This document shows, one piece after another, positions 1-27,814 of a stretch of 27,814 nt of DNA. The notes beneath the pieces are model-generated. The model searched no databases, was not told the origin of the DNA, and saw only the letters and a list, made by a program, of their open reading frames with translations. The position numbers and the translations under genes are program-made. The stretch comes from a virus. Numbering within the stretch: position 1 is the first letter of the stretch; each line of letters begins with the position of its first letter. The stretch spans positions 1-27,814 of the IMG/VR virus record IMGVR_UViG_3300047392_000154; one strand, 5' to 3'.

Positions 1-190
1 CACCGAATCCGCAAGCTGCGTCTTTGATGTCTACGTTAGCACCTAAAATGTTGATTGCAGTTGTTCCTGCAGTTAAACCAGCTTTAACAGTTAAATTGTT
101 AACAGTTTGTGGTTTTAAAATCGCGCGCGTAATCAAATCAGTTGATAACTGGTCAGTATACGCTGGTAATCCTGATAAATTAAATGACAT
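1..190 (-). CDS. Major capsid protein, N-terminal fragment (runs off window)
   Basis: The ATG is at 188-190 and the first 63 residues are visible before the window ends. The reading begins MSFNLSGLPAYTDQLSTDLI and continues with TRAIL and a Gly/Thr/Ala-rich stretch. This resembles the N-terminal arm of major capsid proteins of Bacteroidota tailed phages, which form the icosahedral shell in the HK97-type fold. The gene follows the scaffold gene after about 30 nt, the usual scaffold-to-capsid order. The same GLPAY..DQ and TRAIL words occur inside the protease-like protein at 953-2563. The identification is by motif and position; most of the protein is unseen. Confidence 0.75.
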   Translation of the reverse strand, partial: MSFNLSGLPAYTDQLSTDLITRAILKPQTVNNLTVKAGLTAGTTAINILGANVDIKDAACGFG

Positions 191-220: not shown

Positions 221-811
221 TTATTTTCTCAAAGATTTAATGAATTCGATTTTAGCATCGATTCCACCGAACTCTTCATTAGAAATGTTTGTTACTTTTG
301 GAGCAGCAGTAGCAGCTGGCATTTTTGCAAATTTCTCCATTTTGGTTCTCATTGCACCCATTTCTTCTTTAATAGAAGAAACTTCTTTTGCAACTTCTTC
401 AACAGCTTCGAAAACTGCTTTCATTTTCTCAGCAACTTTTTCAGTTACTTTTTCAATGATTGCTTCTTCCATCGCCACGTCCATTTTAGGTTCAGGTGCA
501 GCTTCACCAGAAACTTCAACTACTGCTTCATCAGAGATTGGTGCCTCATCTTCGATTTCTGCTTCTTCTGAAGAGATTTCTTTGATGATACCTTGAGCAT
601 CAACCTCGATTACAGTACCGTCTTCTAAAGTGTGGTAACCTTCAGGAGCTGGAGTTTTAGTAGAACCATCTTCAGAAACTACAAACACAGGCATTCCTGG
701 CTCTAATTTCTCATACTCAACAACAGTTACGCCGTCTTGTAATTTAGCTGATTCCAACCTAACTTCCATCCCTAAAATTTCACGCACTTGATTCAATTTT
801 GTTACGTACAT
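221..811 (-). CDS. Capsid scaffold / assembly protein
   Basis: The product has 196 residues. Residues 1-80 look beta-rich and contain a segment with LEDGTVIEVD near residues 62-71. Residues 83-115 are strongly acidic and Ala/Pro-rich. Residues 115-160 form a predicted coiled coil rich in Glu, Lys, Val and Met (EKVTEKVAEKM). The C-terminus (FGGIDAKIEFIKSLRK) is basic. An acidic linker, a helical coiled coil and a charged tail fit a scaffold that nucleates capsid subunits and is later removed by the head protease. It sits between the protease-like gene and the capsid gene, the expected slot. A terminator and an AT-rich leader precede it, so scaffold and capsid may be transcribed as a separate strong unit. 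No enzymatic motif is seen. Confidence 0.72.
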   Translation of the reverse strand: MYVTKLNQVREILGMEVRLESAKLQDGVTVVEYEKLEPGMPVFVVSEDGSTKTPAPEGYHTLEDGTVIEVDAQGIIKEISSEEAEIEDEAPISDEAVVEVSGEAAPEPKMDVAMEEAIIEKVTEKVAEKMKAVFEAVEEVAKEVSSIKEEMGAMRTKMEKFAKMPAATAAPKVTNISNEEFGGIDAKIEFIKSLRK

Positions 812-952: not shown

Positions 953-2563
953 CTATATATCGTTCGTGCCTAAAATCTTTTTAATTCTTTCATATGTTTT
1001 AAACGATTCAAGTTCTTCAAGATCTACAAGTATACCTTCGATAGAAAATCCACGCAATTCACCAGCTTTAACTCTTGCCCAAGTTTCTGCATCTTCAACC
1101 TTCACAGAAATCATCCATGATCCAATGGGCACGTTGTAACCATATAGCGTATTTGCTTTATCATCTACAGTTTCGACTAACCAGGACTCAAATATGTATG
1201 CACCAGCAGTATTCTCTTCGTGATCTGTATTTAATTCATGCACTCTACCTTCTTTAAAATACTTTAAAGCAATTTCTTTAATGGTTTCTGGTGAGAATTT
1301 AACAAAATACTTTTGACCGTCTTCATCTACTCTCAAGATTTTCATAGAAGGTATCATACAAGGACCTACTAAAATTTGTTGTTCTTCAGCAGCAAAACTA
1401 AAAATAGATTCATTAATAGTGTTATAATAACCATTTTTAGCCATATCTTTAGGTTTAATTCCAGCAGTACCAGCTGCAGGTCCTAAATCTTGTATGTATA
1501 TTTTACCATCTTTAGTAGATTTAACTAAAAAGTCATTCCATCTGTGTTTGCAATTTGGCCCGCCTTTATATTTAAAAAGACTATATGAAGCACCATTATG
1601 ACCAAATCCTGGATTAGCTATTAAACTGTCAAAAGATTGTATTTGTTGTTTAGTATAATATAAATCAGCACTAACCATTTGTCTACAAAAACTTCTTGAA
1701 TCAGCTCCAATATCACCCATATATTTGTAAAGTATCAATTCTCTATCTTTAGTTTGTGAAGCTTCAGCTGGATTTGTACCTGGTGTAATTGCTTGTGCAA
1801 ATTGCATATCAAATAGTTTACCTAAATCTTCTTCTTTAGTACCTATTTCTTTTGCCACTGCAACAATAGTATCTACTACGTATTGATCTTTGGTCCAAGA
1901 ATTGTCGCACTCAGACTGCGCTAAAATAGCTCTGGTAACAATATCTTTTTTCTTTTTAGGTATTTGATCTACATATGCAGGTAATCCAGTTACGTTAATA
2001 TCAAACTTCATACCTATTTCACCTATTGCATCTATCACATCTTGGTTGTTATCATAATGTTTTTGTATGCCAAGTTCTTTGATCTTCTCTATTTTAGCCT
2101 CATTGCTTCCAGTAGCAAATACTTTTGATGGATCTATACCTAATTCTTTGACAATTGGCATAAACTCATCTTTGTTTTGACCAGCAGAAATAACATAAAC
2201 TATTTCACCTTCTGTGATTGCTTTCTTGGCTAATTCTTTACCTCTTTCAGTATTTAAAGTATCATGATAATCAAATGAAACTTTAACTCCAGCCATTTTT
2301 TCATCCCAATATGAATAACAAATAGCTGCAGCTTGTGCTTCATCTTTACCTTCGTTAATTACATATGGTATACAACGACTAATAAACTCTTCTTCTGATT
2401 CACCAGAGCTTGGATTTACAAACTTTTCAACTTTTTGTGTATTAAAATAGTGAAAGTCCAGCATGATTGCTGGTTCTTCAACTAGCGAAATCTTTTTAAC
2501 ACCAGAAATTTCATCAGTTTCTAGAATACCAAGATCTACAATTTTCTTTTTATCTTTTTCCAT
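953..2563 (-). CDS. Composite XkdF-type prohead protease with HAD and MuF-like inserts
   Basis: This 536-residue head protein has a mosaic structure. Residues 20-47 (ISLVEEPA) match the start of XkdF-type phage head proteases. Residues about 385-515 match the rest of that family: VGPCMIP, ILRVDEDG, a His near 447, ESW at 459-461 and GFSIEG at 505-510. Between them lie about 340 inserted residues: a Cys motif (RC at 63-64, ICY at 81-83); a HAD-like phosphatase fold with FDYHDTL at 97-103, Ser125, Lys157/160 and Asp171; a GLPAYVDQ/TRAIL segment at 193-214 echoing the capsid N-terminus; and a Mu-F-like minor head segment at about 289-342 (SFCRQM, then GGPNCKHRW). The second Asp of HAD motif I is His100, so phosphatase activity is doubtful. 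It precedes scaffold and capsid, as a maturation protease should. Confidence 0.72.
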   Translation of the reverse strand: MEKDKKKIVDLGILETDEISGVKKISLVEEPAIMLDFHYFNTQKVEKFVNPSSGESEEEFISRCIPYVINEGKDEAQAAAICYSYWDEKMAGVKVSFDYHDTLNTERGKELAKKAITEGEIVYVISAGQNKDEFMPIVKELGIDPSKVFATGSNEAKIEKIKELGIQKHYDNNQDVIDAIGEIGMKFDINVTGLPAYVDQIPKKKKDIVTRAILAQSECDNSWTKDQYVVDTIVAVAKEIGTKEEDLGKLFDMQFAQAITPGTNPAEASQTKDRELILYKYMGDIGADSRSFCRQMVSADLYYTKQQIQSFDSLIANPGFGHNGASYSLFKYKGGPNCKHRWNDFLVKSTKDGKIYIQDLGPAAGTAGIKPKDMAKNGYYNTINESIFSFAAEEQQILVGPCMIPSMKILRVDEDGQKYFVKFSPETIKEIALKYFKEGRVHELNTDHEENTAGAYIFESWLVETVDDKANTLYGYNVPIGSWMISVKVEDAETWARVKAGELRGFSIEGILVDLEELESFKTYERIKKILGTNDI

Positions 2564-27429: not shown

Positions 27430-27632
27430 TATTTAAAATTTATTTTAAAACCAGTTGTAGTCCATTTTGCTGTGCTTTCGTTCATTTGTACACCAAAGCC
27501 AGAAGTTAACCATTTAGCTACACTAGTTACTCTTTGCCATACAAGAGTAGTGCCTCTGTAAACAAAATTTACATTGGTACTACCTCTTTTTAGGTCTGTT
27601 ATACTATTTATTTGTCTTTTAATGTCTCCCAT
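27429..27632 (-). CDS. Small fibre-associated protein (67 residues)
   Basis: The product has 67 residues and is basic, beginning MGDIKRQINSITDLKRGSTN. A tandem-like pair (AKWLTSGFGVQMN and AKWTTTGFKINF) is seen near residues 39-66. The opening resembles small phage proteins that cap or follow fibre genes, with a VYRGTTLVWQR strand in the middle. The start overlaps the previous stop as TAATG. A role as minor virion protein is plausible; no function is known. Confidence 0.65.
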   Translation of the reverse strand: MGDIKRQINSITDLKRGSTNVNFVYRGTTLVWQRVTSVAKWLTSGFGVQMNESTAKWTTTGFKINFK

Positions 27633-27814
27633 TATTCAATAAAATATAATGTTGTTGCTGAATATGAACCTAAAGCTGTGTATTGTGCTTGAGTTCCACT
27701 CCAAACGTTTGTTATTGTATTAGGTCCTGATGTTGAAATAGTTCCTGATGGTGTAGTACCTGATGTACCAGCCGTTCCAGAACTACCATTCGTACCAGAT
27801 GTACCGTTTGTGCC
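27632..27814 (-). CDS. Collagen-like upper tail fibre protein, C-terminal fragment
   Basis: Only the last 60 codons are in the window; the gene is open at the right edge. The visible part begins with collagen-like Gly-Thr-x triplets (GTNGTSGTNGSSGTAGTSGT) and ends in WSGTQAQYTALGSYSATTLY followed by FIE. That ending, W.GT.aqY.alg.y...TLYFI, is common at the C-terminus of phage upper tail fibre and structural proteins. The triplets form a stalk; the end is likely an attachment or trimerisation cap. The stop overlaps the next ATG. Confidence 0.75.
   Translation of the reverse strand, partial: GTNGTSGTNGSSGTAGTSGTTPSGTISTSGPNTITNVWSGTQAQYTALGSYSATTLYFIE

Follow-up and report, generated by a model that had tools for sequence, protein, structure and literature searches.

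The fused minor-head/head-maturation protease encoded on the 27,814 nt stretch of viral DNA analysed here (IMG/VR record IMGVR_UViG_3300047392_000154, positions 1 to 27,814; hereafter, the window) carries in an interdomain linker a short motif that resembles the N-terminal arm of the major capsid protein of the same phage. We propose, at a probability of about one half, that this motif is a mimic of the capsid arm by which the polypeptide docks inside the prohead. The proposal builds on a similarity that exceeds chance, on conservation of the motif within a linker that is predicted to be disordered, on its persistence when the neighbouring modules change, and on its co-variation with the capsid arm of the same phage.

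The protease ORF (positions 953..2563, minus strand, as are all window coordinates of features given below) encodes 536 residues and belongs to Pfam family Peptidase_S78_2. Its XkdF-type serine protease domain (1031..1399; residues 389-511) matches PF14550, the model of this family, with E=1.5e-16 and a score of 61 bits against a gathering cut-off of 24, and the same model matches all 34 aligned relatives of the protease. H448 and S507, which we take from knowledge of the S78 group to be the catalytic His and Ser, are invariant across the alignment of these relatives. The protease gene is followed by one for a scaffold-like protein of 196 residues (221..811), recognised by its position between protease and capsid and by its composition, and by the start of the major capsid protein gene (2..190), of which the first 63 residues are present before the end of the window cuts it; the gene is complete in the related locus L003. 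The gene order protease-scaffold-capsid indicates that the first of these proteins is probably a head-maturation protease. The window further contains genes for a portal and a terminase. A model of the L003 capsid protein resembles HK97-fold capsids (Foldseek E of ~1e-9, TM of ~0.5), which suggests that the window's capsid protein, represented there by 63 residues, has the HK97 fold as well. Sequence searches for solved relatives returned none that was convincing for either the protease or the capsid protein.

Three further regions are distinguished upstream of the protease domain. The first is a HAD-like alpha/beta module (2015..2290; residues ~92-183), named by eye from an FDYHDT motif, for which nothing scored above the Pfam cut-off. 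It is followed by a linker that is predicted to be disordered (1892..2044; residues 174-224), and then by an F-like or portal-C-terminal-like minor head domain (1430..1885; residues ~227-378), which matches phrog_33693 with E=3.7e-10 and resembles the C-terminal part of portal proteins of Nonlabens phages. The name "F-like" was given for an FCxxM...GGxNCxHxW pattern and denotes resemblance only, because PF04233, the Pfam model of Mu F, had no match in the window protease or in 33 relatives. A fold search with the model of the whole protease gave no significant match, as expected for a multidomain model with a pTM of 0.38.

A preliminary description of this DNA had noted that FDIN, GLPAYVDQ and TRAIL occur in the protease in the same order as SFNLS, GLPAYTDQ and TRAIL at the start of the capsid protein. 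Reading of the ORFs confirmed both sets of strings, and BLASTP aligned the protease with the capsid start with E=1e-7 and 15 identities in 32 positions. The motif core of the protease, FDINVTGLPAYVDQ (residues 187-200; 1964..2005), which is delimited by BLASTP, by PSSM ranks and by an island of conservation, aligns without gaps over 14 residues with MSFNLSGLPAYTDQ, residues 1-14 of the capsid protein; the core of the capsid arm itself, FNLSGLPAYTDQ, comprises residues 3-14 (149..184). The strings SFNLS and FDIN are therefore real, but they are better paired in the gapless register M-S-F-N-L-S-G-L / F-D-I-N-V-T-G-L. Beyond the core the protease has a Lys-rich spacer, IPKKKK, which is three residues longer than the LST of the capsid protein, and the alignment then places DIVTRAIL of the protease (residues 207-214, with TRAIL at 210-214; 1922..1945) against DLITRAIL of the capsid arm (residues 18-25; 116..139), the latter lying inside a predicted helix of residues 13-25. 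Sharing of this second half with the capsid is confined to the window's clade and the sister lineages nearest to it. The motif does lie in the interval 1932-2010 to which it had been assigned, but that interval ends inside TRAIL, which occupies 1922-1936, and the full similarity extends from 2005 to 1922. When the whole protease was compared with its own record by tblastn, the capsid start was the sole other match (E=6.8e-4).

Relatives were collected in four IMG/VR scans, one genome scan and one phage record, giving ~170 loci, many of them overlapping; in most of these, protease and capsid genes lie side by side. The bacterial genome scan yielded three distant loci only, none with the motif (0/3). 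A PSSM of 12 residues was built from the protease motifs, with the window's whole clade left out, and used to scan the ORFs of the loci in all six frames. Just 1 of 382,816 background windows scored higher than the N-terminal arm of the window's capsid protein. Of 27 distinct capsid arms, 25 ranked among roughly the best 20 background windows; the FNL[NT]TLSTFNLE arms of L084/L085 did not. The converse profile search with the capsid arm, suggested in the preliminary description and run here as a PSSM, placed the window's protease motif above every background window. These rankings put the similarity of the protease motif to the capsid arm beyond chance. Among 41 distinct motif sequences, conservation is found at positions -1 to 12 and, as K, at positions 15-18, while most flanking positions have an entropy of ~3 bits. 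The regular expression with which the motifs were collected inflates conservation at the positions that it names, but F/M at -1, V at 10 and KKKK were free of it and are likewise conserved. One might suppose that the two proteins match by chance, or that they converged on a common type of linker that has no shared function, as the motif comprises only ~12 residues, of which four to five are strongly fixed. We consider this very unlikely, since the ranks obtained in both directions are at the top of ~383,000 windows, the motif is conserved inside a disordered region, and the match is better within than between phages.

A Met precedes the motif in 12 cases. It was considered as an internal translation start and rejected as such, because there is no A-rich leader (fraction of A 0.34, versus 0.70 at real capsid starts).

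In the scan of the loci with the capsid PSSM, no third carrier stood out from the ORFs that encode neither capsid nor protease; one window alone scored high, on a short minus-strand ORF. Scaffold-like ORFs, 130 in number, scored at background, and the scaffold-like protein of the window lacks the motif. The result for the scaffolds weakens the main rival explanation, in which the protease of the phage itself recognises the motif, as a cleavage site or as an uncleaved pseudo-substrate, both on the capsid arm and within the interdomain linker. The protease would then trim the capsid protein and free itself from its N-terminal modules. Self-processing would indeed be expected in an interdomain linker, and there is a precedent in phage 80alpha, whose capsid and scaffold proteins share an N-terminal cleavage motif for the host protease Prp according to passages of PMC5744158. 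As with this CP/SP/L27 cleavage motif, which is N-terminal in 80alpha, the same short sequence occurs here in several proteins of one phage; in the 80alpha system as described in those passages, however, the scaffold shares the cleavage site, whereas here scaffold-like ORFs do not have the motif above background although the scaffold is the usual substrate. In addition, two clades of proteases are devoid of the motif (see below). We regard recognition by the phage's own protease as unlikely, though worth keeping in mind.

In the AlphaFold2 model of the window protease, based on an alignment of 34 sequences, residues 174-224, which hold the motif, have a pLDDT below 50 (32-49 for the motif itself), while their neighbours are well predicted. 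The absence of predicted order at the motif argues for a short linear motif and not for a duplicated fold. On the capsid side, the AlphaFold2 model of the L003 protein has a pLDDT below 50 for residues 1-12 and a helix at residues 13-25. The models thus suggest that the element shared by protease and capsid protein is a peptide, without duplication of a fold.

The motif is maintained while the modules around it change. In L003, L007, L012, L037 and others, the motif and the part downstream of it are kept, and are preceded by a zinc-finger + ESYNDYPESAK module or by no module. In L060 and L078 the motif precedes a different module, the F-like domain being displaced, and L080 and L085 retain the motif despite complete replacement of the F-like domain. 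The possibility that the motif is part of the F-like domain was therefore discarded; persistence through these swaps indicates that it belongs to neither adjacent domain. It is, on the other hand, always encoded together with the XkdF protease domain. This constant association would be expected if the motif bound within the same polypeptide, to the F-like or the protease domain, with the capsid arm competing for the same pocket and thereby switching the protease, and a disordered linker could fold back in this way. Yet AlphaFold2 placed the linker nowhere with confidence, and the motif persists without the F-like domain in L080 and L085, so that we hold such intramolecular binding to be quite improbable.

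Motif and capsid arm of the same phage co-vary, as was tested by comparing own-phage pairs with permuted pairs after grouping the proteases into clusters by identity, which leaves few independent lineages. At 75% identity (17 clusters), own-phage pairs scored 22.3 versus 18.8 for permuted pairs (sd 1.05, p=0.0008). At 65% identity (6 clusters) the values were 21.6 versus 16.6 (p=0.007), and at 55% identity the p value was 0.17, a test without power as only 3 clusters remain. The same statistic was run on other windows of the proteins to allow for shared ancestry and composition. By z, none of 139 other capsid windows paired as well with the motif, 0-1.1% of 88 protease-domain windows paired as well with the capsid arm, and 0.5-0.6% of 792 unrelated protease-by-capsid window pairs reached the same z. 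Matched states can also be seen directly: phages of the window's clade have GLP/TRAIL in protease and capsid alike, several sister phages have GLT/TKAIL-TKALL in each of the two, and in the distant L078 phage F replaces Y in both partners (LDPSSLPDFIDE / INVSALADFNNE). Support for co-variation of the motif with the capsid arm of its own phage is thus good but not overwhelming. Docking of the protease, put forward as a possibility in the preliminary description, gains plausibility from these data, as the motif is conserved in a disordered linker and varies together with the arm of its own capsid protein.

A strict pairing of the two elements does not hold. The preliminary description had named motif-less proteases beside arm-bearing capsids as evidence against the pairing, and these are found in two clades: the proteases of L083-L108 and of L116-L161 are without the motif and their capsids keep the arm. 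This refutes an obligatory pairing but not an optional docking motif, and docking by means of the motif would be dispensable in some lineages. On a tree of the protease domain, built from a short alignment and with long branches, seven changes are required to explain where the motif is present, and well-supported branches force four of them. Since the capsid arm is nearly universal and the protease motif patchy, it is the protease side that has been gained or lost repeatedly. In the Nonlabens phage P12024S (L005:179-1228), the XkdF-type protease continues at its C-terminus into a fused scaffold-like part, and the motif was found in neither the capsid start nor the portal; this single case is consistent with docking.

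The statement that the DNA of the two copies is quite different was borne out: the motif cores of protease and capsid are 67% identical in DNA (57-67% over the comparisons made), and among the 14 identical residues in the two compared blocks the same codon is used in six. Moreover, the consensus letters differ at the same positions, being F-N-L in the capsid proteins and I-D-T/V in the proteases. These differences in consensus and codons speak for probable convergence on a shared binding site and not for a recent copy. Of the two origins first suggested, an old duplication or convergent mimicry, mimicry is supported; an old domain duplication is not, as ~12-28 residues match and a common fold is absent. 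A more restricted form of duplication, in which part of the capsid gene start was long ago copied into the protease gene and kept by descent without need of binding, would fit the similarity in the window's clade, which spans 28 residues in the same order. It is highly improbable in our opinion, given the diverged DNA and codons, the different letters retained by the two families, and a patchy distribution for which the tree forces at least four changes.

As described in passages of the respective papers, the scaffold binds the helix of the capsid N-arm in SPP1 (PMC6813328) and in 80alpha (PMC5644958), and the extended arm before the helix of 80alpha adds a strand to the P-domain sheet and moves under the E-loop of the neighbour at maturation (PMC5744158). 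The capsid protein of the phages studied here appears to be built alike, with a predicted HK97 fold and an N-terminal segment that is extended and leads into a short helix, the region that serves as an assembly contact site in 80alpha and SPP1; in contrast, for those two phages the passages concerned do not describe any other head protein with a copy of the arm (PMC5644958, PMC5744158, PMC6813328). Furthermore, according to the same sources 80alpha proteins are cut by a host protease and SPP1 releases its scaffold, whereas the phages here encode an XkdF-type protease. In the docking model that we favour, the protease motif would be a short linear motif imitating the N-terminal arm of its own phage's capsid protein. 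It would be placed in the flexible, Lys-rich linker of a polypeptide that consists of a swappable N-terminal module, the portal/F-like domain and the XkdF-type protease, and it would occupy a site normally used by the capsid arm. Because the extended part of the 80alpha arm adds a strand to the P-domain sheet, the P-domain/E-loop face of the capsid subunit would be the favoured site; the C-terminus of the scaffold, which contacts the arm helix, would be a second candidate partner. As the motif core corresponds to the extended part before the helix, and TRAIL is present only in some lineages, docking to the shell would be the first choice and docking to the scaffold the second. The protease would stay attached to the shell up to the point at which the arms rearrange during maturation. 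That the motif binds physically, to which partner, when, and with what effect on incorporation of the protease, is what we infer from the data presented above. The likeness, which goes far beyond chance, and its recurrence in many related phages suggest that the protease may hold on inside the growing head by means of the motif.

The capsid targeting sequence of T4 is a short peptide that takes internal head proteins into the prohead; it is N-terminal, is removed by the protease, and is not a copy of a capsid protein. The motif described here would likewise be a short peptide for prohead entry, the entry being proposed, but it is internal (residues 187-200) and not N-terminal. Targeting peptides of encapsulins, as presented in passages of PMC8346489, offer another parallel, since they are short motifs that dock on the inner face of an HK97-fold shell, as is proposed for the protease motif. 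Those of Family 1 are, according to that source, mostly found at a terminus of the cargo, and the shell has no extended N-arm, whereas our motif is internal and the likeness proposed is one of role rather than of sequence. A further analogy is CpmB of SaPI1, which in the account given in passages of PMC5644958 is also a head protein that has taken over a short motif of a second one and thereby its binding site; CpmB, however, imitates the C-terminus of the scaffold, and the protease here imitates the capsid arm. That short motifs can direct proteins into phage heads, and that one head protein can borrow the motif of another (SaPI1 CpmB), is already known, while imitation of the capsid N-arm by a maturation protease was not found in titles, abstracts and passages of the open-access literature. 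Little is understood of how the prohead recruits its protease in phages where protease and scaffold are not fused, and the shared motif offers a testable answer in a group of uncultured phages. It might also serve as a peptide tag with which cargo is loaded into HK97-fold shells of this kind.

Several other features of these loci were observed. The region between the N-terminal segment of the protease and the motif is a hotspot of module swapping (window 2015-2430; L003:4078-5997; also L007, L037, L064 and L058), in which HAD-like, zinc-finger + ESYNDYPESAK and other modules alternate between close relatives. The proteases of L083-L108, which are without the capsid-arm motif, have a permuted order with the protease domain first and the F-like domain second (e.g. 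L099:5785-6843). The scaffold-like proteins end in a basic amphipathic segment, e.g. AKIEFIKSLRK, which compared by eye is reminiscent of the helix-and-hook of 80alpha. About 25-40 residues before this basic C-terminus, the scaffold-like proteins of the window (221-811) and ~60 relatives contain a conserved F-x-[KD]-x-P-[AG]-[ATGS] element, which could be a cleavage or hinge site. A sequence located after the F-like domain of the window protease (1400-1500), GPAAGTAGIKPKDM, is similar to PAATAAPK, an element of the scaffold, and the protease might process itself there. Finally, tail-fibre-like proteins rich in GTSGTSG or collagen-like GPQGPQG repeats are encoded in the window (27632-27814) and in L003 (8928-10994) and L004 (3757-5565).
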